Below the pieces are notes generated by a model. The model ran no database searches. It saw only the letters and a program-made list of their open reading frames with translations, and was not told the origin of the DNA. The translations under genes were made by a program, and so were the position numbers. This document shows, piece by piece, positions 30,789 to 62,753 of a DNA stretch of 64,000 nucleotides. The DNA comes from Mariannaea sp. PMI_226 (lineage: Eukaryota > Ascomycota > Sordariomycetes > Hypocreales > Nectriaceae), in contig JANFOG010000004.1 of the NCBI GenBank assembly GCA_024336345.1, positions 3,782,001-3,846,000 on the forward strand, read 5' to 3'. Numbering within the stretch: the stretch's first letter is position 1; each line of letters opens with the position of its first letter.

Positions 30789-32085
30789 TTTGAACCGAGT
30801 CTCTCAAAATTGGGGTTTGTTGGACAAAGAGGAGAAGTTGGTTGGAGTGAAGAAAAAGATGTCTTAGTTGTCCGTATTTAAAGTCATGGACATATCGATA
30901 ATCAAGTAATTTGAGAAAGGAACGATTCGGTGGATTGGAAATTGGCGCCAGACTTTGTTGACCTCGCTGTTTGCTTCTCTGTTGGCTCCGATGCTGGTCA
31001 TGTTGTTGGGTCGCAGTCGAATTCCTGACATAAGTAAGCTCCTTTCTTCGGCTGGCTCCCCTTAGTTCCGGCCCTTCAACCCGGGCCTACATATGTATGC
31101 ATTTTGGCTGGAAGCATCTCCTGGGTAATTAACAGGGACGTTGATGAGTGTTAGTGATTCAGCCGCTCCTAGTGGCGCGGAGTATCTGGCTAAATTAGAG
31201 TAGCCCACTTCGCCCCCAGATCGAATCATATCCCCATGTCAGCCCGCCAAGAGCGCGGATCGAGGAGCCGTAACTCCAGGTTGGGGGTGGATACCTCAGC
31301 ATGTGCCGTAGACCAAGCTCGACGGCTCCTTGACCTTAGTTTGAGCGCTACAACGACAAACGACCCCAGCATTCTGGGCTGCGTTGATGCGGCGTCCGTA
31401 TATTCGCGCACGAACAAACACCAAAAGAGATGGAACTTCACACGTTGTCGACATTGCCTAGGCATACACTGTACACACCCGCTATACGACAAAGGCCAGA
31501 TATCAAGAGATTCAGGGCATGGCATGGTTCGGAATTGTCGGGATCATCTTGCGGAAATGATGCTATCAGTCGCTCTGAAGGATTCACGACATGCTTCACA
31601 TCATGGATACACCGTCCGACTACTGCTTATTGCCGCATATGCTCTGCAAGACACAGTAGGAATGTAAAGTCGCGGATCATTTGCCCGCATCCCGTCAACT
31701 CTAACTCTTCTAATGCTGACGTTCTTGATCATGAAACCTTCCTACCATGATGGCATGAATACCTATCGAACAGGAAACGTCGGTTCTTGTTCCAACTGGC
31801 GCTCGCTTACTGTTATTCTTTCCTGTGGAGTCGAGGACGATTTCAACGTGGATATTGAGGGGGATGCTAAAAACTATTTGCTAGTGATGATTGAACTGAA
31901 TTCAAAGCTAGATAGCCGTCGTTTTGTATTAAATAGGCGTTTCCCCACGCGTAGCTCTATCTGTGGCATTGCTTTTGGCTTAAGAAATAGAAGTGCAATC
32001 AATCAATCCTTGCCTGCTGTCGTCTTCAATTATTAGATTTGTCTTTTGATACACCCCCTTTGTTACTGTTTTCTTGATAGCAAGC
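30789..32085. other. Divergent intergenic region upstream of PKS
   Basis: 1.3 kb. A plus-strand frame at 31236-31667 (144 codons) lacks family motifs and splice support, so I do not call it. The region carries the promoters of the RTA1-like gene and of the PKS. Confidence 0.5.
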
Positions 32086-35000
32086 ATGACTGAGCTAAGC
32101 TTAAGCCCAATTGCTATTATCGGCATGGCATGCCGTCTACCAGGAGGTTCAGACAACCCAGACAAACTTTGGGATATGCTCTCAGAGGGACGAAGTGGCT
32201 GGCGTGAGATTCCTGCAGACCGATGGAACAAAGATTCGTTTTACCACCCCGACCCTGAGGCTAAGGAGGCCGTCAACTTCAAGGGACTGTACTTCCTGGA
32301 CCAAGATATCACTGCTTTTGATGCACGCTTTTTCAATGTTCACCCTCACGAAGCTCACTGTCTCGATCCGCAACAGAGGATCCTGATGGAGACGACATAT
32401 GAGGCTCTCGAGAACGCTGGACAGACGATTGAAGGAATTAAAGGCTCTGATACCTCTGTACACGTAGGAGCTTATGCTACCGAGTGAGTACTTTGTTGTG
32501 CCTTGCAAGAGAAAGCAACATGACTAAGATGTCTAATCCACCCATCCCGAGCTGTGAATTTGGGCTAACGTAGGCATTGCTAGCTTCGAACGTATGGGCT
32601 ACAAGGACACGGCAAAAACCCCGAAGGCCCATATGATTGGCACAGGAATTGCAATCCTTTCCAACAGGATATCCTACGTCTTTGATCTCAAGGGCGCGTC
32701 TAGCACAGTGGACACTGGGTGTTCAGGGAGCATGGTGGCCTTGCATGAGGCATGTCATGGACTTCGAGCGAGAGAATCAAAAATGGCCATTGTTGCCGGC
32801 ACCCAGTTGGTTCTCACTCCTGATCAGATTATCCCCATGGCCAGTGTCGGGTAAGCAAACCCATTATTTGTACTTGGTATATAAGCTGACTACATTGACC
32901 CAGAATGACAAACCCGGATGGAAAATGCTATGTTTTTGATAGCCGAGGCGCTGGATATGCAAGAGGGGAAGGTGTTGTAAGTTTAATTCTTAAGCGTCTT
33001 GACGACGCTGTTAGAGACGGCGACAAAGTACACGCAATCATTAGGAGCTCTGGCTTGAACCAAGATGGCAAGACAGTTGGCCTCACCCTCCCCAACTCGG
33101 TCTCTCAGGCGAATCTTATGAGACAGGTTTATGAAAATGCCGGTCTGGACCCAATGGATACTTGTTATGTTGAAGCTCATGGGACGGGCACTAAGGCCGG
33201 TATGTACATTTTCCCCCCTGTTTCGCCCTTGGCTTTGTTTGTTGAATGTCCACGAACAATCTCTAAACTATTCCTAGGCGACAGCGCAGAAATATCATCT
33301 ATCGCTGAGGTCTTCTGCCCTGAAGGCGCACGCAAGGATGGCCTCTATGTTGGATCTATAAAGTCAAATATTGGACATCTTGAAGCTTCAAGTGGTGTTG
33401 CAGGATTGCTCAAAGCAATCCTGATCTTGAAGCACGGAGCAATTCCACCCAATGTTGATTTCATCGAGCCCAAGCCTACCTTGCACCTTGAGGAGCGAAA
33501 TATCAAAGTACGTATCTCGCGAGAAATGTCTCATTGTGCTGCGACTGACTATTCGCTACTAAGATTGCAACTGAGCTGGTCACTCTTCCCAGAACAAGTG
33601 GTCCCCGGCGAGTCTCTGTCAATTCTTTTGGCTACGGCGGTACCAACGCCCATGTGATCTTGGAGGCTCCATATACCGATACCGATGAGAAACAGGGAAA
33701 GGTCCCTGTCTCAACAGTATCAAATGACACCAATGGACATTCAAATAACACCAATGGACATTCAATTGACACCAATGGACATTCAATTGAAACCAATGGA
33801 CATTCGAATGACACCAATGAACATTCAATTGAAATCAATGGCGCCAACGGTCATGGTAGAGATACGACCGAGGCTATGCAAGATAAAACTCATGACAAAC
33901 CCAGACATAATGGGGCAAGCGGAATCAATGAAAATGAAGCAGAAGATGAAATTGCCGACGCGAAGGCTGCACAAATCTCTCAGCTCTTCGTCTTGTCGGC
34001 TAGATCTGAGACATCTCTGCAAACTATGGTTTCCAATTTGCAAAAATGGGTCTCTTCTCACAACGATACTTCTTCCTTGGCAGACCTTGCTTACACTCTC
34101 TCAACACGCCGGTCCGAGATGCACTTTCGCTTTAGTACGGTAGCGGCTAGCCATGACGATCTCATCGCTCTGCTTGATAAGAAACCCCGTATCACTAGAG
34201 CCACGACCAGCTTCCGCTCTGTGTTTCTCTTCACGGGCCAAGGAGCTCAATGGCATGCCATGGGTCGAGAGCTTACTATGAGCCAGCCGGTGTTCAGAGA
34301 CTCAATGCTCAAGTCTGACAGTATCTTGAAACAACTCGGCGCAGAATGGAGTTTGATAGACGAACTCTCTAGAGAAGAGAATAGCTCGCGAGTTGGGCAG
34401 GCTGAAATTTCTCAGCCATCTACCACAGCGATCCAAATCGCACTGGTGGATCTCCTCAAAAGCTTCAACGTCTTTCCCAATTTGGTTCTTGGCCACAGCA
34501 GCGGCGAGATAGCAGCCGGCTATGCTGCGGAGGCCTTGGACCACGAGGCAGCGCTCGAGATATCCTATAGGCGTGGTTTTATGTCAAAAGCATGTGCACG
34601 TGTCATCTCAACCAGAGGTGCTATGATGGCTGTGGGGTTAGGTGAAGACGAAGTGAAGAAATACATTGAACAAACCCGGAAGGGGATGATCTGCGTTGCG
34701 TGTGTCAACTCTCCTGAAAGCACGACAATCTCTGGGGATGGGACTGCCATTGATGAATTGAAGCAGTTGCTTGACGAAGAGTCCATATTCAACCGCAAGT
34801 TGAAGGTGGACACGGCGTATCACTCTCATCACATGAAGAAAGTCGCAGGCGAGTATCTCAGCTCCATTGCACATATTAAAGCACGTATCCCAAACCCTGC
34901 TATTAAGTTTTACTCTTCTGTCCTTGTTGCACAGAAGACGGGTGGTTTCGATGCCCAGTATTGGGTCGACAACCTCGTGTCTCCAGTTCGCTTCGGAAAC

Positions 35001-38000
35001 GCTTTGGACCTTCTCTGCCGCACGGAACTCATAGGTCTCGAGCCGGTACCACTCAATCTGTTCATGGAAATTGGCCCACATGGTGCACTGGCCGGTCCTG
35101 TAAGGCAAGTTATCAACAGTCTCGACTCGGCTGGCTTCAAATTTAATTACCTCCCTACGCTGGTTCGGGGCCGAGACGCTGTGGTCAGCCTTCTGGAAAC
35201 AGCGGGTAAGCTGTTTGAGTTTGGATATCCAATTTCGCTTCAAGCAACACTGAGTCGACAAGATGGATCAAAGCCAGCCAAGTTGGTTGACGATCTTGCG
35301 CCGTATCCTTGGGATCACTCCACGAGCTATATCTATGAATCAAACCTCAGCAAGCAGCACCGTTTTCGTGCACACCCACCCCATGATCTCCTGGGTTTGC
35401 GGGTTCCCGGAACCACGATCCACGAGCCTACTTGGCGTAACCTTCTCGGAATCGACAGTCTTCCATGGTTGAAGGATCACGTTGTCGATGGCTTTGCCAT
35501 CTATCCTGCCGCGGCCTATCTCTGTATGGCTATAGAGGCAGTGCGCCAAATCAGTATTGATAGAGGGATTCAAGGTGTTATCTCTCAAATCCATCTAAAA
35601 AATATAACATTCTCCAAGTCAATCATGATTCCCGAACGACGAACAGATGGTCTGCTATCCGACGTCGAAGTTCTCCTAACATTGAGGCCTGCAAAGCACA
35701 TGAACGATCGCACATGGGAGACTTTTCGTATCACAGCCCTATCCCCGGAGGACGACTGGCACCAACATTGTTGCGGAGATATCATGGTCGAATGGGCGTC
35801 CAAAGAGGACGAAGTCGAGGGCGGGCGTGAAGAGAACATGAGGACCGCGGATCGCCTCAAGCACCTTCAAGATATCATAGATGCATGCGACACCAAGTAT
35901 AGCAAACAGGATCTTTACAAGAACTTCACTGATAACGGAAATGTGTATGGACCTACCTTCACAGGTATCCAGTCAGCCCAGGTTGGTTCGGATGGAGGCA
36001 TCGCTGAGATCAGCATTCCCGACGTGGCAAGTGTTATGCCTCGGAGACACCAACAGCCGCATGTTATCCACCCAGCCACATTTGATGCCGTCTTTCAACT
36101 GGGAATTCCCTTGTATAGGAGAAATATTGGAAACGGCCCCGTGATGCCAACAAGCATGGACGAATTGGTCATAAACTGTAACCTCAGTAGCAAACCTGGT
36201 ACTAAATGGATCGCGGCCACCACTATAAAGGAAAAGGGATTTCGATTTGCAAGTGTTGAGATCTCTGTATTCGAAGAAGTGGCCGAAGGTGGTCCTCTGG
36301 TGCCGATCATCAACATTCGCGGAGGATCTCTTCGGGGGATTGGCGAAGCGCCAGTTGACGAGAGTACGCTTCCGTTTCATCGCCAGGCGAGCTACGCCCT
36401 CGAATGGAAGCCCGATATTGACCTCCTCCCACTCAAGAAAGGGAGTCAACAACCACAAATGTTAGATTATCTTCAACTTCTGGCTTTCAAGCAACCACAT
36501 ATGAAGATTTTGGAAGTGGGAGCTGGAAGCGGATGCGGCGTGGCACTACCCTTGATCCAAGCACTTGATCGTCCGGAAGGGCTAATGCTTGAGCGATACT
36601 GCTACACTAACTCCCACGACGATGCCTTGGCTGACGGGAAGGCTGCGCTTCAGAAGTGGGGGGATTTTGTTGATCACAAGATTTTGGATATGTCTAAGGA
36701 TCCTATCCAGCAAGGTTTTGAAGAGGGTGCTTACGACCTTGTCCTTGCTTCAGACGGATTCCTTGGAACGGACTCTATAGATAAGAGTCTGGCCAACTCG
36801 CGGAAGCTCTTGAAACCTCACGGGCGACTGATACTCGGTGCACTACCAATAAATGGAAAGCTTGACAACAATTTTCCCTCGTCTGAAAGAGATTGGAATG
36901 CATGCCTAGAGAAACATGGGTTCCAGAGCGCCATATTTGATCACACTGACCCTTCTTCTGCGGAATCCCCTATGATTGCTGCCACAGCGATGGAGACAGT
37001 GCCCGCTGCGCCAGCAGACTTCCCTCCGATCCAAATTATTTGTCAGTCTCAGTCAGATGATGAGTTTGCGTCTTTCACAGATTCAATAAAAGCACACCTG
37101 ACAAGCCACGGATTTCCCTGCTGCTCAGGTGGTTGGCAACCTGAGCCAGTCAGTGCCGAACCAATTTACATCGTTCTCGATAATTCTGCGGACCCTATTC
37201 TTACTTCGCCCACCGCGGAAAGGTTTAGTCAAATTGTCTCATTAGTTACTGAAGCAAAGAGCGTACTCTGGATTAGCTGCCAGGTAAGTGGTGAGGATGC
37301 TCAAAATCCGACAAAGGGCATGATTAGTGGCCTTGCCAGGGTAGTACGACGAGAAAACGCAGGTATGCGATTCGTCACTATCGATATACAAGACGATGTC
37401 ATTTCCAGCCCAGAAATAATGATTCCTTGGCTCTGGGATATTATTTTAAGGTCATTCGCTACTCCGATTAGTGTGACACGATCTGATGAAGATGAGTACA
37501 CTTTCAGAGAAGGCCAGATCCTCATCCCGAGGGTCCATGCTAATTCCCAGTTCAATAACTGGGTGAAAAGGACCGCGTATGCCCAAGAAGTGGAAACTGG
37601 CCCTTTCCATCAAGAAGATCGACCGCTCAAGCTCGAGGTTGAGACACCGGGACTCTTGAGCAGTCTTCGGTTTGTGGACGATGAAACACCTGCCAAGCCC
37701 CTTGGGCCGTTCGAGCTGGAGCTTGAAGCCAAAGCGTATGGTGTCAACTTCAAGGACGTATTCATCGCGATGGGACAGATGGTACCGGGTGTCACTATGG
37801 CGGGTGAATGTGCGGGAACGGTTACCAAGGTGGGCTCCGCTATCATGGACAAGTTCAGTGTTGGGGATCGGGTATGTGGTATCTTTGCCGAGCCGTTTTC
37901 GAGTCGCCCCCGGATTGACGGAGCCTTCAGCTCCCGTCTTCCAAAAGCAATACCGTACTCTGTCGGCGCGTCCATCCCTGTCATTTTCTGCACGGCTTAC

Positions 38001-41000
38001 TACTGCCTCATCGAAGTTGCTCGTCTTCAGCGTGGACAGACCGTCCTGATTCATGCTGCGTCAGGTGGTGTCGGTCAGGCAGCCATCCAACTTTGCCAGA
38101 ATATCGGGGCCGAAATATTCTGCACTGTGGGTAGCAGTGCAAAGCGTCAGCTCCTGATGGATGAGTTCAACATTCCTTCGAGTCATATCTTCTCATCCCG
38201 GCTTCGGACATTCAAGCAGGGTATTCTGCGGCTCACCAATAACAAGGGTGTCGATTGCGTTCTGAACTCGTTGTCAGGTGAATCACTTCATGACTCGTTT
38301 TCCGTTCTTGCACCATTGGGAACCTTCGTTGAGATCGGAAAGTCTGATATCTATCGCAAAAACGAAATCAGCATGGTTCCATTTGACAGCAGCGTCACCT
38401 TCGCTGCGGTGGACCTAACGGTCTTGGCCCGACTCAAACCAGTGAAGATGAGAGAAACACTCGACAAAGTACTATCCATGTTTGGAAACGGTACCCTGAA
38501 GGCTGTGGCTCCTATAACATCAATTCCCGTGGCTAATATAGAAGATGCTTTCCGTCTCATCCAGTCCAGAAAGCATACCGGGAAAGTGGTTCTCGTTTGT
38601 GACAACGAGCCCCCAGTCAAGTTGACCGTAGCACGCCCTCCATCCCTCCGCCTACAAAGGAATGGCACCTATGTCATCTCTGGGGGTCTGGGCGACCTCG
38701 GACGAAGAATTGCGAGGTTTTTAGCCGTTAATGGCGCAGGACATGTCGTGACGTTGTCTCGACGGAAGCTAGAAGAAGAAGAACGACTAGCCTTCCAAAA
38801 AGAACTGGCTTCTCTGGGATCAGATTTACACATTATTAGTTGTGATATCACCGATGAAGAGTCAGTGCGATCAGCTGTCGCAGAATGTTCGAAAAACTGT
38901 CCCGAAGTAAGAGGTGTCATCCATGCAGGAATGGTCATAAGGGTATGTGTCCTTCGTAACTTCTGGTCTGTTGCAGTCTAACTTATCTTCTCATCAGGAT
39001 CATCCTTTCGAGCTCATGTCTCTCGATGACTACATGGCAGCCATTAAACCCAAAGTTCAAGGAACCTTGAATCTTGATAAGGCATTTGGTGCCTCTAATT
39101 CCCTAGACTTCTTCATTATGCTGTCATCTATTACCGCGATTCTCGGAAAATCTGGGCAATCCAACTATTCAGTCGGCAACGCGTACCAGGATGCCTTCGC
39201 TCATAAGAAAACGAAATCAAGCTGTAGATATATATCTCTGAACCTTGCTGCAGTTGACGGTTCATTGGCTATCACATCGCTTCCTGACGCACAACAAGAG
39301 GTTATGCGACGGGGATCAGTTCTTATGTCGTTTGAAGAAGTCTTCACCGTATTGGCCTACGCGATGAGCCCACAGGCGGACAAGGATGACCTTCATCAGT
39401 TGATTCTTGGATTTGACAGAAAGTCCATGGAGGCAGTCCACGATGAGGCTGCGCTTGCCAATCCCTTGTTCAGCCAGGTCCCTTATCTGGAGCAGAAAGT
39501 GGAAACATCAAAGGAGGACGCTACCGACATTGCCATGCTAATTCGACAAGCAACTAACCCCGGGGAGGCTGAAAGCATTGTAGTTCGTGGTATTTGCGAG
39601 AGATTTGCTATGTTTACTGCTCGCCCAGTTGAAGACGTCAGTCCGGATGTTTCGATGGACAATTTTGGTCTTGATTCTCTTGTTGCGATTGAGTTAAAGA
39701 ACTTCCTTGTGCGAACTTTCCAGACAACACTTCAAACCTCGGAGGTTCTAGATGCGTCCAACATCACGAGCTTAGCCAAGACTATCATCCTCAGATCCAA
39801 GCTTGTGTCTCAAGATGGTGAAGCAGTCGTTAGTGGAAAAGAAGATATTAACGGCAACAACAAAGAGGAAGACGACAAAGCTAGCGACAAAGAAACAGCA
39901 GGTGTCATTGAGAACGCCTTGAAGCCAGCTGTTGAAGCTACGAGTTCCGAGGCAAATCACAACTTCCAGTGCTGTCGAGAATCCAAGATCCTCAACAAAA
40001 TGCCTATTGTCGATTTTGATATCATGCTCGATGAATATCTCAAAAATTCAAGAATGTTTTTCTCTCCCGAGGAATTCCAGACTCTGGAGAGGGATGTGAC
40101 AGAATTCAGAAAGTCAGGAGGTCTGGGTCGAAAATACTACGAAACCCTCTATGAGCAAGCCCACGATCCCAATATCGAGAATTGGCAAGAAAATTACTTC
40201 CTGCAGAGCATGTACCTACAGAGGCGCATGCCTCTTGCACCATTTAATAACTTCATGGCGTTCCATCCTCTTGGGGAGATGGGTCATACTCAAGCAGAAC
40301 GCGCTGCGTTGATTGCCAACATCGCTTTCAAATCCAAGCAGGATCTCGAGGCAGGTCGATGGAAGCCCATGACGTTCCTTTTCAGGCCCAATTGTACAGA
40401 TCTTTGGCAGTACATATTCAACACGGCCCGGTTGCCTGGTGTTCCCTTCGATAGGATGGCAAAATTTCCTGGTCATGACTATATGGCGGTGCTCCACCGC
40501 GGACACATCTTCAAAGTTATGCTCAAGGACGGAGAAGAGAATTTGTCTATCGAAGCGCTGACTATCATCTTCAATTCCCTCTTAACTCGTGAAGACACCA
40601 CCGAGAGTTGGGCAAGTATTCTTAGTACCGACGATCGAACTTCCTGGGCGGAGGTAAGTTTAGCCCTCTATATGCGCCATTATGAGTGCTTGTGCCCTTA
40701 CTGACTGTTTGACACGCAACAGAGCCGGCAAGCTTTAATAGAACTTGACGCGACTAATGGCGAAACCATCGACATGGTAGAAGCCGCTGCTTTCCTTGTA
40801 TGTCTTGACGATACAGAGCCTACTTCTGCAGAAGCCCGAATCAGGGATATGATGATGCTCAATGGTTTCAACCGGTGGGTTGACAAGTCTATTGCGTTTG
40901 TGGTGTGCAAAAATGCGACTTCTGGCACATATGTCGAGCACACGTCGATTGATGTTAGTTTTGCTATTCCCTTTTACCCACCCTCAGGAGGCTAGAAAAC

Positions 41001-41895
41001 TGATCTGTCATAGGCAATGACTCTGGTCCGGATGCAGACTGCCATCGTCCAGGGCATAATGACCCACAAGCCAACGAAGCAGGTCAATGGCCATACAAAC
41101 GGAGTTATTGGAATGCCCAGAGAGTTCATGCTTAAGACAACATCGGCCTTGGATGAACGCATCTGCCACGTGCGGCAGCGATTCGAGGACGACATCACAA
41201 AATTTGGGTATAGAGACGTCATACTCTCTGAGTTTGGCAAAGACATCCTACTTGATCGTCATCTTCCCATCAAAGGCATCTATGACCTCATGGGTCTTCT
41301 CACCAACTACTACTATTACGGCTACAATGCTCAGTCCTGGGAAGCTATCTCCATGTCTCACTATCACAAAGGCCGGCCAGATATCGTACAAGTTAACACG
41401 CCCATAACTGCGCACTTCTGCACAGTTGCAGATGACGAGAATCTTCCCGCGAGCGAGCGATTTAAATTGATGCTTGAGGCCGCCAACGCCCGGAACCAGA
41501 CCATCAAAGATTCGTTCATGGGTCGCTCTTACCAGCGTACCCTCCGGGCCCTCGAGATTTGTGCAGAAGAGGCCGGAGAAGTACCGACTCTCTTCAAAAA
41601 CCCACTTTACGAGAAGACCGTGGAGCCAGATCAAATGTTCTCAAATACGGACGGCCTCTCTCCCGAGTCTTGTTTCATCATGCAGGACCCTAAGAAATTC
41701 TGGATGACATATTATGTGACTGATACAGGGTAAGTCAAACCTTTCCCGACCATATGCTCCATAGAAAGCTAACAGTTCTATCTTCTTTTCAGCTCACATT
41801 TCTCAATTGTTGCTGGGAAAAAAGAGGCAATCAAGTGGGCAGACTGTTTGAAACGAGCTTCGCTGGCAATGAAGAAGTTGATAGATGCAGTATAA
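32086..41895 (+). CDS. Highly reducing polyketide synthase with C-terminal carnitine acyltransferase domain
   Basis: Nine exons (32086-32483, 32584-32850, 32904-33199, 33278-33507, 33564-38942, 38998-40653, 40723-40953, 41014-41729 and 41793-41895) close in phase to about 3,091 residues. Order: KS ~1-430 (VDTGCSGS with Cys179, EAHGTGTKAGD, KSNIGHLE); a Thr-Asn-Gly-His-Ser linker repeat; AT ~615-930 (GHSSGE); DH ~1000-1290 (HVVDGFAIYP, HPATFDAVFQ); a short methyltransferase remnant ~1350-1490 (ILEVGAGSGCGVA); ER ~1755-2070 (HAASGGVGQAA); KR ~2097-2280 (SGGLGDLGRR, GQSNYSVGN); ACP (FGLDSLVAIEL, Ser near 2417); cAT ~2525-3091 with catalytic His ~2815 in YVEHTSIDAM. HR-PKSs of this layout (for example Tv6-931 of Trichoderma virens) release and recapture chains onto polyols instead of hydrolysing them. 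Product unknown. Confidence 0.96.
33726..33842 (+). repeat. 21-bp in-frame tandem repeat in PKS KS-AT linker
   Basis: About five and a half copies of a 21-bp unit, each encoding a seven-residue D/N-T-N-G-H-S-I/N motif. It lies inside the PKS coding sequence between the KS and AT domains and probably forms a flexible hydrophilic spacer. Copies differ by one to three bases. Confidence 0.9.
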
Positions 41896-53122: not shown

Positions 53123-54025
53123 ATGGATGAGATCGAGACCCAACCGTTCCTCGAGCACCCTGAGAAAGGCGCCAGCAAGAGAGAATCTACTTCGCCCCGA
53201 TTCATATTTTGGACTTTGCTTCCGTCAGCAATTTCCATTACGCTTTTCTTCGCGCTGTTGTTTGTTCTCTTGCGAGATCAGCCAGCGGTGGGAGCTCGCA
53301 CTGGCTATGGTAGTGGATTTGTCACAGACTTTGGTAAGGCTTAGCGCCAACACCATATTTTACACATGTGTCATTCGTGGTTTTGTATTCGTTAGAGGAA
53401 ACCTGGCTAATACACTACAGCTCCTATCACACCTTCAATAAAAATCGAGCAGCGACGCTTCACCGGGAGCATAGAATTTAACGAAATAACTGGCGAACCT
53501 TATCTCTCGGAGAATTCTGCTTTTCAAGTGTTTGTTGGCCAACCTCGGCCAGAAATTGACGCAGCCTGGCATTCTGTCCTTGACGGATACCATATATACG
53601 CAACTCCTGCAGAACAGGCTACAATCGACGATGGCGATTTCGATGGTACCAAAAAGTCATGGCACCAAGAATCTAATGGGCTTTATCAGGATGGTATTGC
53701 AATGTTTCATACACTTCATTGCGTTAATATGATCCGAATGTACATAGACTACGAGTACTATAAGGACATATTCGAGAAGAAAGAGATGTTAGATATGAGG
53801 GTACATATTGAGCATTGTTTGGACTACATCAGACAATCTATCATGTGCTGTGGGGATTTAACACCTGTTCCTGTACGGTGGCATAATGCGAGCAAACACT
53901 CCAGGGTTTATTCGGACACTGGACTCACGCATACTTGTCGGGCTTTTGCACCAATTAGGGAACTAGTCACAGGGAGACATAATGGGAGCAAAGCTGTATT
54001 TATCGAAGAAACCAACGATTTTTAG
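53123..54025 (+). CDS. UstYa-like (DUF3328) oxidase 1
   Basis: Two exons (53123-53333 and 53421-54025) give 271 residues in phase. A short cytosolic tail (MDEIETQPFLEHPEKG) precedes one membrane anchor (residues ~28-50, LPSAISITLFFALLFVLL). The lumenal part has RRFTGSIEFNE, the DUF3328 block PEIDAAWHSVLDG, and the two diagnostic HxxHC motifs at 167-171 (HTLHC) and 199-203 (HIEHC), plus SIMCCGDLTPVP. UstYa/UstYb-type proteins are copper-dependent oxidases that cross-link Tyr and aliphatic side chains of secreted core peptides to make cyclic dikaritin RiPPs. Both the second paralogue and a repeat precursor are within 9 kb. Confidence 0.93.
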
Positions 54026-54803
54026 TATTCACCGACAACTAACAATGACCCGATAGCACCTACTGTGAAATACACCCAAGTGAGTAGCAAATAGGATTCG
54101 TCAGCTGGGACGATCACGCTCTGAAGTCAAAGCAAAGGTTGAAAGGATCGGTTTCGTCCTGCCAGATAGCCGGAGGGTGAGGTTGAGCTCGGTCAAATTC
54201 GGTCGCACCAAGACCCGTGAGCTTGTAGTTTGGGGGTATATACATCTTATGTTTCATTAAGATCCATCTCATGGCAATGAATAGTCGACAGTCTTTACGA
54301 TATTATAATATCGGAATGACGGGCGCACTAGCAACTCGTCCCTATAATTAACGAAATCTCTTGACGCCTACCAGTATGCTTTCATAAATTGATCGCATAT
54401 CCTTGAAGAATTTGTGAAATGATCACCTAAAAATGGCATATATAGCAGCCACTAATTTGCTCGGAATTGGACTGAGCTAGAATCGGTCTCTTGCGGGGTG
54501 AACTGTAAAATATTGACTCCTTCCCAAGCTTAGACACTATTCATTCTGAGGGGAGGAGAGGTCCCAATTTCGAGGTTTCAACGCCATAGCAAGTAAAAAT
54601 TAAAAAAAATGGATCTGGTGCAACTAGGTCTTTCACCTCTACTCACTTCTAGCTATGTACTCCATTGCGTCAATAGCAAAAGTATCCTGGGGCCGTATCG
54701 ATTACACCACACGTCCCGGAGCAACAAGCTCCAGGATTCTGGATATCGCAAGGTTCTGTTGAATTTCTGTGTCAGAGTTATTCAAGTGCGAAATGGAGCG
54801 GAT
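54026..54803. other. Intergenic between convergent genes
   Basis: About 780 bp between the 3' ends of the UstYa-like gene and the cysteine-rich gene. No gene seen. Confidence 0.5.
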
Positions 54804-55376
54804 TCATTTACGGTTCTTAGCAAGGCAGTCGCTGCTGCATGACCCATTGACGCATTTCGAGGTGCACTTACAGAGATGACTGGCATTAGCGTTTGACGAT
54901 TAAAGAAAAATGCAAAAGGAGAGTCGGTATCGTGAAGCGGGAGCAAAAGAAGAGAACCTTTGTTCCACGAACTGAGAAAGGTGGAAAAGATCATCGCAAA
55001 TCTACTTACCTTCGTGCCACATGTTCCACAATTGTTTTTATCGGTCTTCGTATTAACGCATTTACCACCACACAGTTGCTTGGTATGGTGGGAACCGCAC
55101 TTTGGGCCACATTCCCAGCATGGCCCTCTCCCCCGTGCACCGTGAGATGCACAGGCCAGTCCAGCCTTTAGCGGGAAGTTGGCCAAACACCATTTTTCGC
55201 AACTGTTCTTGTGGTGGAAACCCCTCGGCTCTTCCTGGGCCAGGGTAGCAGTGGCTTTTGGTCGTAAAAAGGGACTGAATTAGCACCGCCTTGAAATTCC
55301 AATGAGAGGTGTATTGATAGTTATCTTCTCAAAACTCACCAAGAACAAACACCACAGAGGTAAGTAGACAGCGCAT
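54804..55376 (-). CDS. Small secreted cysteine-rich protein
   Basis: Three exons (55376-55340, 55254-55010 and 54866-54804) give 114 residues; none appears as a whole in any unspliced frame. The first splice joins a clean signal peptide (MRCLLTSVVFVLATATLAQ). The mature part has 14 cysteines: NSCEKWC, LAC, PCWECGPKC, QLCGGKCVNTKTDKNNCGTC, then CTSKCVNGSCSSDC. The CVNTxTDxNNCGxCG pattern occurs in small secreted fungal proteins with EGF/Stig1-like disulfide modules. An effector, antimicrobial or cell-wall role is possible but unproven. It sits within the RiPP locus, yet its sequence gives no direct link to peptide maturation. Confidence 0.82.
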
Positions 55377-60113: not shown

Positions 60114-61149
60114 CTATGCGGCCTCTCCATCGACGACCCCATCGTCGGGATGGTTATCGTACCAGTGTAATGCTTCTTTGAACTCGTGGCTCATAATATG
60201 GACTTTGTAGTCTTCAGGAGCCCTTACTTCGGCGAACTTCTCGACAGGAACAGCATGTTCTTCTTGCCATGCTAGTATTGCATCAAAATCCCGACACTTA
60301 TGGTCGATGTTGAAGTCAGGGAATGCGTGAATCTGAGCGTCTATCCAACGGTGTGTATACAAATCGACGTTTCCACTACACATCAGATTCTGTAGTATAG
60401 CACTGATGCAGTGACTGACGTGGAGATCAGTGAAACGGTCCGTGGGAGTGTCCCCAGGGAACTGGTCGCCAAAATAGTACGCAAAGTTATTACGAAGATT
60501 CTTCCGGAGGGTGTTCAAACAGTGGATCTGGTGAAATACGTCAACCTTGCCGATATACGCTTCCTTGCCATAGCCGAATGATTCAGGAAATTTGGCTACG
60601 TCGTTCGGATCTTTCCCCAAACGAATGACATCTTCTCGACTGATGGGGATGGGATCTCTGGTCTGTATTCTCTCCCATGCGGCATCAACCTCTGGTGAAG
60701 GCGACTGCCTATAAATATCTTTCGGCTCGATGTCTAGTAAACTGCCGTTCATCCGCTTATTAATAAGAGGAATGTTGATTTGATCCAAGAGTGGCGCTAT
60801 CCATGATGTTAGCAGAAGTTGAAGTCATTCGCATGAGAATCATACATGGATTCGAAGTTGCCTTCAGTAGCCAATTCATGCCGTAGGCTTCCCTTACTTC
60901 AGACAACATGAAAGCAGAGACGGCAAAGACCAGGAGAGAAAGGACGAATATCGACAAATTTGCAACCAAAACCCATTTTGGGAAGCTGTGGCGAGGTGAC
61001 GTTGAAGAGAGTTCCAAGTTGGAATCCGAACTGAGCGAGTAACCATTTAAAAGGCGGTCTTCACTCGTCGACTTATCATCATGCAATCTGTCATCGTCCC
61101 CTAAAACAGATTGTGAGCAGTTGAACTGCCTCTCTGTTGTCTCTCTCAT
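60114..61149 (-). CDS. UstYa-like (DUF3328) oxidase 2
   Basis: Two exons (61149-60846 and 60796-60114; 49-bp intron) give 328 residues in phase. A hydrophilic acidic tail of ~58 residues precedes one membrane anchor (LVANLSIFVLSLLVFAVSAF). The lumenal domain has SPEVDAAWERIQ and both HxxHC motifs: 190-194 (HQIHC) and 227-231 (HVSHC), followed by the LMCSGNVDLYTHRW block that closes the family signature. The C-terminus is longer than that of the paralogue at 53123. Pairs of UstYa and UstYb are needed for cyclisation in ustiloxin-type pathways, so this is likely the partner enzyme. It lies 1.07 kb from, and divergent to, the repeat precursor gene. Confidence 0.93.
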
Positions 61150-62216: not shown

Positions 62217-62753
62217 ATGCGTTCTTCTATTCTCCTTACTCTGGCCCTAACGGCTTTGCCCGTCTTAGGAGGTCCTATTCCAAGCAGTGGGTTGGCCGAA
62301 CTTCATGACAGTATAGTACTAACGTTCAATTTAGATGAGAAGCGTGTCGCCGAGGTCGACTACGTTCGTGAGGGTCGCGATGTCGATTACATCCGCGAAG
62401 GTCGTGATGTCAAAGCTCGCGATGTCGACTACATTCGGGAGGGTCGTGACGTTGACTATATTCGTGAGGGCCGAGATGTTGAGGCTCGCGATGTCGACTA
62501 CATTCGTGAAGGTCGTGATGTTAAGGCTCGCGATGTCGACTACATTCGTGAAGGTCGTGATGTTGAGGCTCGCGATGTCGACTATATCCGCGAAGGTCGT
62601 GATGTTAAAGCTCGCGATGTCGACTATATCCGCGAAGGTCGTGATGTTAAAGCTCGCGATGTCGACTACATTCGGGAGGGTCGTGACGTTGACTATATTC
62701 GTGAGGGTCGTGATGCCAAGGGAGGCGAAGTCGACTATGTTCGCGAGGGTTAA
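62217..62753 (+). CDS. Dikaritin-type RiPP precursor with eleven core repeats
   Basis: Intronless, 178 residues. A signal peptide (MRSSILLTLALTALPVLG) and a ~25-residue leader end at a dibasic Lys-Arg (DEKR), the usual Kex2/KexB site. After it come eleven copies of Asp/Glu-Val-Asp-Tyr-(Ile/Val)-Arg-Glu-Gly: nine with Ile, with the first and last having Val. Units are separated by single arginines, either directly (EGR-DV) or through linkers DVKAR/DVEAR. Architecture (signal, leader, repeats, UstYa partners) matches UstA/PhomA-class precursors, whose Tyr-containing cores are oxidatively cyclised. Tyr next to Ile/Val supplies the residue types UstYa enzymes use, but Y-I-R-E-G is not a core I know. 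The internal monobasic sites are atypical for Kex2. The mature product is unknown. Confidence 0.88.
   Translation: MRSSILLTLALTALPVLGGPIPSSGLAELHDSIVLTFNLDEKRVAEVDYVREGRDVDYIREGRDVKARDVDYIREGRDVDYIREGRDVEARDVDYIREGRDVKARDVDYIREGRDVEARDVDYIREGRDVKARDVDYIREGRDVKARDVDYIREGRDVDYIREGRDAKGGEVDYVREG
62341..62750 (+). repeat. Coding tandem repeats of the RiPP precursor
   Basis: Mixed units of 27 bp (core alone) and 42 bp (core plus DVKAR/DVEAR linker) built on GATGTCGACTA(C/T)AT(T/C)CG. Synonymous changes between units show they have been kept at the protein level while DNA diverged. A +1 shadow frame through the array is open only because of the periodicity. Confidence 0.9.

Follow-up and report, generated by a model that had tools for sequence, protein, structure and literature searches.

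A locus of Mariannaea sp. PMI_226 with two repeat precursors and two UstYa oxidases, the probable source of a new ring-shaped fungal peptide

Introduction

In ustiloxin, which has the core YAIG, the tyrosine is linked to the isoleucine two positions on. The UstA/PhomA dikaritins have a signal peptide, tandem cores separated by KR and neighbouring UstYa-family genes; in the cores, an acidic residue precedes the tyrosine and an aliphatic one follows it (EDYXI in a published survey), with an aliphatic residue at Tyr+2. The newer definition of the dikaritins takes UstYa/DUF3328 as the class-defining enzyme, while the older one relied on a tyrosinase, methyltransferase, peptidase or transporter (PMC12048977); the cores are described with KR, RR or KK separators (PMC9769878). 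UstYa-family enzymes also catalyse hydroxylation and halogenation and occur in non-RiPP clusters as well (PMC12048977, PMC12435403).

Two further systems are close. Asperipin-2a (aprA/aprY) combines a precursor with a UstYa-family enzyme, without a tyrosinase among the four genes given for it (PMC6514808, PMC12048977); its core, FYYTGY, contains several tyrosines and its cluster has a transporter and a reductase (PMC6514808). The epichloecyclins are nonapeptides from the multi-core secretory precursor GigA, with KR in the repeats (PMC6514808) and a cross-link from an aliphatic residue amino-terminal to an internal tyrosine (PMC9233826). The KEPs are defined by a rule of at least three tandem repeats, of at least 8 amino acids, between KR, KK, RK or RR; DUF3328 neighbours were counted for 1,758 of 7,878 KEP genes, with the count peaking at the adjacent position (PMC7329392).

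Here we describe a locus on contig C20 of the Mariannaea sp. PMI_226 assembly (42.2 Mb, 25 contigs). The window, which is the whole stretch of DNA analysed, comprises the 64,000 nucleotides C20:3782001-3846000; its numbering is used throughout, extended beyond its ends where needed. A first-pass annotation of the window had proposed a secreted, dikaritin-type precursor with tyrosine-containing cores, here called the Y-type precursor.

Results

The Y-type precursor

The proposed open reading frame (Table 1) is present as described, on the plus strand, and encodes 178 residues unspliced or 162 after predicted splicing. It contains, in frame, an intron candidate with a GTGGGT donor, a TACTAAC branch-point-like sequence and a TTTAG acceptor; these signals suggest a 48-bp intron, which the gene probably carries, and the leader would then end in ...GGPIPSNEKR. 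The amino-terminus is hydrophobic (the 11-residue Kyte-Doolittle mean peaks at 2.26, from residue 4), in keeping with the proposed signal peptide, and the precursor looks secretory. Exactly one dibasic site is present, as had been claimed, a KR located upstream of the first core. There are no cysteines, and all Pfam domains are below the cut-off (best E 0.091).

All eleven of the near-identical Tyr-(Ile/Val)-Arg-Glu-Gly cores reported earlier were counted, as [DE]VDY[IV]REG units, nine with isoleucine and two with valine. Among them, 9 of 24 nucleotides are variable, eight of these nine at third codon positions. Compared with the consensus core, 29 nucleotide differences produce 4 amino-acid changes, against 20.5 expected from random mutation and a minimum of 11 in 20,000 simulated trials. 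Copies that descend from one another lack independence; with only the 8 distinct copies, 4 changes were observed versus 16.2 expected. The third-position bias and the few amino-acid changes therefore place the peptide under selection: the array is a coding repeat, selected as a peptide at the protein level, beyond chance.

A degenerate-codon pattern for DVDY(I/V)REG, which misses the two EVDYVREG copies, has nine matches in the assembly, all inside the Y-type gene, and its reversed-pattern control has none. The codon pattern TATATCCGTGAGGG, whose codon choice did not fit the gene, has no matches in the assembly. A search of the genome with the Y-type precursor also returned a weak match on contig C21 (E 0.003).

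The second precursor and the two UstYa genes

A second precursor, with tryptophan-containing cores (W-type, 90 residues), and both UstYa genes do not figure in the first-pass annotation of the Y-type gene and were found in the present analysis; the two precursors and two UstYa genes span one 11.5-kb locus. The layout of signal-peptide exon, intron and repeat exon is also read in the W-type precursor, on predicted splicing, with the first exon encoding MRGLVPLVAFLSAVSGAPSPM. Its seven DVNAPDW cores have KR separators (6 dibasic sites) and vary at three nucleotide sites, all third-position and synonymous. With seven repeats and six dibasic sites, this precursor falls within the KEP rule, and it has the dibasic-separated cores of a dikaritin. 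Weak matches to it on contig C3 were rejected, lying inside a long low-complexity repeat protein. Calculated [M+H]+ values are 637.330 for YIREG, 966.453 for DVDYIREG, 816.352 for DVNAPDW, 1691.882 for DVDYIREGRDVKAR and 1692.830 for DVDYIREGRDVEAR, with a calculated loss of 2.016 per cross-link bond.

Each precursor is arranged divergently, head-to-head, with a UstYa gene: 1,068 bp separate the start of UstYa-B from the Y-type ATG, and 1,530 bp the start of UstYa-A from that of the W-type precursor. The first-pass annotation was to be abandoned if homologues proved to be structural wall or adhesion repeat proteins without UstYa neighbours; UstYa-B is located at 60.1-61.15 kb (PF11807, E 2.3e-50) and UstYa-A, about 6 kb beyond it, at 53.1-54.0 kb (E 1.5e-34). 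UstYa-B is the strongest of the 10 UstYa (PF11807) exon matches in the assembly. Both proteins carry HxxHC(x)nHxxHC, and the six motif residues are invariant when UstYa-B is aligned with 33 relatives, chosen among 120 of 205 matches. In the related hydroxylase CctR, the two HxxHC motifs form a binuclear copper site at the dimer interface that is needed for activity (PMC12435403).

In the AlphaFold2 monomer model of UstYa-B (mean pLDDT 80.9, pTM 0.69), an N-terminal helix is formed by residues 58-89, and the HxxHC motifs are located on helices 187-200 and 222-242. The motif helices and N-terminal helix of CctR are described alike (PMC12435403); a monomer model bears on the fold and not on copper binding. 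When the model was searched by fold against the PDB, 21 matches with E <= 10 were returned and none with E <= 0.001; by sequence, the exon alone gave one irrelevant match (E 0.92) and the alignment none. Among the listed protein matches to UstYa-B, relatives with 67-77% identity over the query exon belong to Phialemonium thermophilum, Apodospora peruviana, Pseudogymnoascus and Talaromyces atroroseus.

Table 1. Positions of the features discussed, in window numbering unless a contig is named
Feature	Position	Strand	Label	Basis
Y-type precursor gene	62217..62753	+		ORF, repeats, own-genome searches
Y-type predicted intron, 48 bp, GTGGGT..TACTAAC..TTTAG	62287..62334	+		splice signals
Y-type repeat exon, 11 cores, 10 REGR-D and 6 V(K/E)AR-D junctions	62335..62750	+		sequence
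Starts of the eleven Y-type units	62352, 62379, 62421, 62448, 62490, 62532, 62574, 62616, 62658, 62685, 62727	+		sequence
UstYa-B (BGZ63DRAFT_506579, 328 aa), HQIHC...HVSHC	60114..61149	-		PF11807 E 2.3e-50, motifs, model
UstYa-A, HTLHC...HIEHC	53123..54025	+		PF11807 E 1.5e-34, motifs
UstYa-A hydrophobic N-terminal exon	53123 to ~53332	+		ATG read by eye; boundaries approximate
UstYa-A catalytic exon	~53411 to 54025	+		boundaries approximate
W-type precursor gene, 90 aa	51259..51593	-		sequence
W-type signal-peptide exon	51593-51531	-		sequence
W-type predicted intron, 62 bp, GTATGT..TAG	51530-51469	-		splice signals
W-type repeat exon, seven DVNAPDW cores	51468-51259	-		sequence
Highly reducing polyketide synthase, terminal carnitine-acyltransferase domain	32050-41733	+
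Precursor, GN(H/Y)LWK(N/D)SAPE repeats, no dibasic site at all	C2:1661178-1661711	-	L017
Precursor, ten TDGVANWQW cores, KKEAR spacers	C2:1245811-1246350	-	L021
Precursor, three NTNIYCFIDKR cores with Cys, EAR/KR spacers	C19:3956559-3956849	-	L020
Fragmentary UstYa match	C7:52776-53433	-	L023, L024	one fragment with in-frame stops

Surroundings of the locus

A Pfam scan of 26 ORF translations, picked by length between 43 and 81 kb in extended coordinates (two overlap the same stretch), revealed no tyrosinase, methyltransferase, S41 peptidase or P450. The genome's four tyrosinase exon matches are on contigs C24 and C1, none of them near the locus. Nor is any of its three S41 peptidase matches, the one on C20 being at 160 kb versus 3.83-3.84 Mb for the locus. 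Between the two precursor/UstYa pairs, only a fragment with a weak STIG1-like match was seen: it is Cys-rich, located at 54785-55279 on the minus strand (E 1e-5), and a longer reading of it is below the cut-off. Across the surrounding 94 kb, one further repeat frame was seen, within the polyketide synthase. A 21-bp tandem repeat (33720-33841) is located in the linker of the synthase ahead of its acyltransferase domain. The Pfam scan also showed a 2OG oxygenase (67-68 kb), which lies downstream of the Y-type precursor by about 4.5 kb, genes of the alcohol-dehydrogenase type (72-75 kb) and a transporter-like exon (43.3 kb; TRI12, below cut-off) at a distance of 8 kb from the W-type precursor; none of these was assigned to the locus.

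UstYa loci elsewhere in the genome

The UstYa exon matches in the assembly correspond to 7 genes at 5 loci, and at four of these five a tandem-repeat precursor-like ORF is located within about 3 kb of UstYa. This pairing agrees with the adjacency of DUF3328 genes in the KEP survey (PMC7329392). In a small control of four 10-kb stretches, the same repeat rule gave one match, a Ser/Thr-rich frame of 1,264 residues of another kind, and comparable precursors in none of the four; out-of-frame shadows of the same arrays are excluded from these counts. Of the five precursors, two of them at the present locus, four are divergent from the nearest UstYa gene, the exception being the secretory precursor at C2:1661 kb, which is near both an A-type and a B-type UstYa. 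The repeats of the C2:1246 kb precursor are TDGVANWQWKKEAR, and its sequence and that of the C19 precursor make a signal-peptide exon, intron and repeat exon likely there too. At the UstYa locus on contig C7, no repeat frame is present in the surrounding 20 kb, and this locus has perhaps decayed. An acidic low-complexity frame was seen at C2:1256 kb.

Among six UstYa exon translations, a comparison that left out the C7 fragments, UstYa-A is closest to the gene at C2:1664 kb (38% over 103 residues) and the one closest to UstYa-B lies at C2:1666 kb (39% over 177 residues). Since the latter two adjoin, an A-type and B-type pair occurs twice in the genome. By sequence, UstYa-A and UstYa-B look like a recurring pair, reminiscent of ustYa/ustYb.

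Junctions between the cores

The earlier description of the Y-type precursor as Kex-processed is not supported if taken in its usual meaning: its one KR precedes the first core, and between cores there is no dibasic site at all, the junctions being REGR-D (ten) and V(K/E)AR-D (six). Each V(K/E)AR site stands after one or two cores, and all six aliphatic-x-x-R motifs of the spliced precursor coincide with these junctions. Comparable sequences are IEAR/VEAR ahead of the NTNIYCFIDKR cores on C19 and IIQR ahead of the first DVNAPDW core. In place of such a site, the C2:1246 kb precursor has KKEAR, and in the C2:1661 kb precursor both dibasic sites and single-Arg sites of this kind are missing. Kex2 needs arginine at P1, prefers an aliphatic residue at P4 and tolerates variation at P2, with alanine outside the top five P2 alternatives given (PMC8528282). 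The six V(K/E)AR sites would thus be compatible with relaxed Kex2 specificity only. The genome has one match to the Kex2-type P-domain, on contig C25. Products cut after a single arginine are reported for heterologously expressed KEPs (PMC9769878), and the Kex2 products deduced in the ustiloxin pathway are 13 to 14 residues long (PMC6514808).

Homologues and literature

Protein searches with the whole Y-type precursor (7,994 candidates scored, none with E <= 0.001) and with its residues 44-110 (2,440 scored, none with E <= 10) yielded no homologues. Neither recovered the Y-type gene itself, which may therefore not be annotated there, and missing homologues among protein records are weak evidence. 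The core string DYIREG was not found in the literature searched, and the listed matches to 'yireg', in a search outside supplements, include by title none on fungal peptides; nor does any listed paper join Mariannaea with dikaritin or UstYa. The Mariannaea elegans genome paper, in which PMI_226 served as reference and other peptide precursors were screened, makes no mention of dikaritin, ustiloxin or DUF3328 in its main text (PMC9258550). KEP genes near other KEP genes are described among those without DUF3328 neighbours, as is a Trp-type KEP family partly with such neighbours (PMC7329392); a two-precursor locus and a Trp core are therefore not wholly unprecedented.

Discussion

Comparison with dikaritins and KEPs

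With the UstA/PhomA dikaritins, the Y-type precursor shares an N-terminal secretion signal, judged by sequence and hydropathy, multiple near-identical cores (11 units), UstYa/DUF3328 enzymes in the cluster and an acidic residue before the tyrosine with an aliphatic one after it. However, its cores are separated by single arginines and not by KR, and in Y-(I/V)-R-E-G the aliphatic residue is at Tyr+1, with an arginine at Tyr+2, the cross-link position of ustiloxin. Unlike in those systems, tyrosinase, S41 peptidase and methyltransferase genes are missing from the locus (the methyltransferase judged from the 26 ORFs), and the accessory genes of the older definition with them. The locus resembles that of asperipin-2a in joining a precursor to a UstYa-family enzyme but differs in having two of each. 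As in the epichloecyclins, the precursor is secretory and multi-core, and V-D-Y would allow the same kind of cross-link; KR within the repeats and the nonapeptide length are not shared. Both precursors of the locus are secreted-type repeat proteins like the KEPs; the W-type conforms to the published rule, whereas the Y-type, with its one dibasic site, does not. We conclude with fair confidence that the Y-type locus works like a dikaritin locus. It stops short of a certified member because dibasic separators and accessory genes are missing and the protein searches gave no counterpart from other species for comparison.

Proposed pathway

The protein-level selection on the repeat, the signal-like amino-terminus, the adjacent UstYa genes with their copper motif and the second precursor, all read from sequence, make it likely that the locus, in which two precursors accompany two UstYa oxidases, makes RiPPs by a dikaritin-like logic. 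Its Y-type gene is probably the source of a new ring-shaped fungal peptide. Cyclisation, the exact Y-I-R-E-G core, the cleavage sites, the cross-link, the product and the pairing of enzymes we infer as follows. The Y-type precursor would enter the secretory pathway, lose its signal peptide and be cleaved by Kex2, or by a different arginine-directed protease of that pathway, at the KR and at the V(K/E)AR sites. These cuts are proposed because of the Kex2 preferences at P4, P1 and P2, the coincidence of six motifs out of six, the similar sites in other precursors and the single-Arg cleavage of KEPs. They would release four single-core 14-mers, DVDYIREGRDV(K/E)AR, a 23-mer and a 25-mer that both carry two cores, and a carboxy-terminal piece of 31 residues that carries three; if the protease cut at every R-D bond instead, the same core would result. 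UstYa-B, possibly with UstYa-A, would oxidise the tyrosine-containing core, most likely linking the tyrosine oxygen to an aliphatic beta-carbon, that of Val at Tyr-2 or of Ile/Val at Tyr+1, and the product left after trimming would be a small, charged ring peptide built around Y-(I/V)-R-E-G. The W-type precursor may supply DVNAPDW, its Trp core, either to the same UstYa enzyme or to the partner enzyme.

Other readings of the locus

The repeats might instead yield linear, unmodified peptides of a pheromone-like or signalling kind, with the UstYa neighbours serving the other precursor or another substrate. Of the 7,878 KEP genes, 6,120 have no DUF3328 neighbour (PMC7329392), and many KEP peptides are seemingly linear (PMC9769878). 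Nevertheless, the gene right next to the Y-type precursor, and divergent from it, is UstYa-B, all but three of the known mating-factor and pheromone KEPs lack accompanying DUF3328 genes, and tyrosine, present in the Y-type cores, is overrepresented in repeats associated with DUF3328 (65.6%, compared with 38.2%; PMC7329392). We regard linear peptides as unlikely. Still less probable is a charged wall or matrix protein, secreted uncut: single arginines join the cores without dibasic sites and the array is regular and highly charged, as such a protein might be, but it is small (162 residues), free of cysteine and of Pfam domains above the cut-off, and it has a UstYa partner in a genome with four further UstYa-linked multi-core precursors, one of them at the same locus.

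The remaining alternative, in which the UstYa enzymes belong to the highly reducing polyketide cluster located at 32-41.7 kb and the repeat genes merely happen to lie nearby, appears the most remote of the three, even though the synthase is inside the same window and DUF3328 enzymes are known from polyketide and nonribosomal peptide pathways (PMC12048977). The end of the synthase is 11 kb from UstYa-A and 18 kb from UstYa-B, while a divergent precursor stands 1.1-1.5 kb from each UstYa gene, and a repeat-precursor neighbour recurs at three other UstYa loci. The preferred reading therefore remains a RiPP locus of dikaritin-like logic.

Significance

Another UstYa-linked repeat precursor is ordinary by itself, more than 1,700 having been counted in 2020 (PMC7329392). 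Less ordinary are the single-Arg architecture and the presence of Tyr-core and Trp-core precursors with two oxidases within 11.5 kb. The published dibasic rule (PMC7329392) would skip the Y-type gene. From what is excerpted of them, two large fungal repeat-precursor surveys both demand dibasic-separated repeats; the Y-type gene and the dibasic-free precursor at C2:1661 kb therefore suggest that such surveys undercount. Tentatively, and as a possibility we would not yet favour, there may be a class of UstYa-linked precursors released at single arginines (aliphatic-x-A-R) and escaping dibasic survey rules, represented here by a two-precursor, two-oxidase locus that would give Tyr (Y-I-R-E-G) and Trp (DVNAPDW) macrocycles. 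If the Trp core is modified too, the locus would offer a direct test of two questions: whether a UstYa enzyme takes an aromatic residue that is neither Tyr nor Phe, and whether a single UstYa pair is able to handle two precursors.
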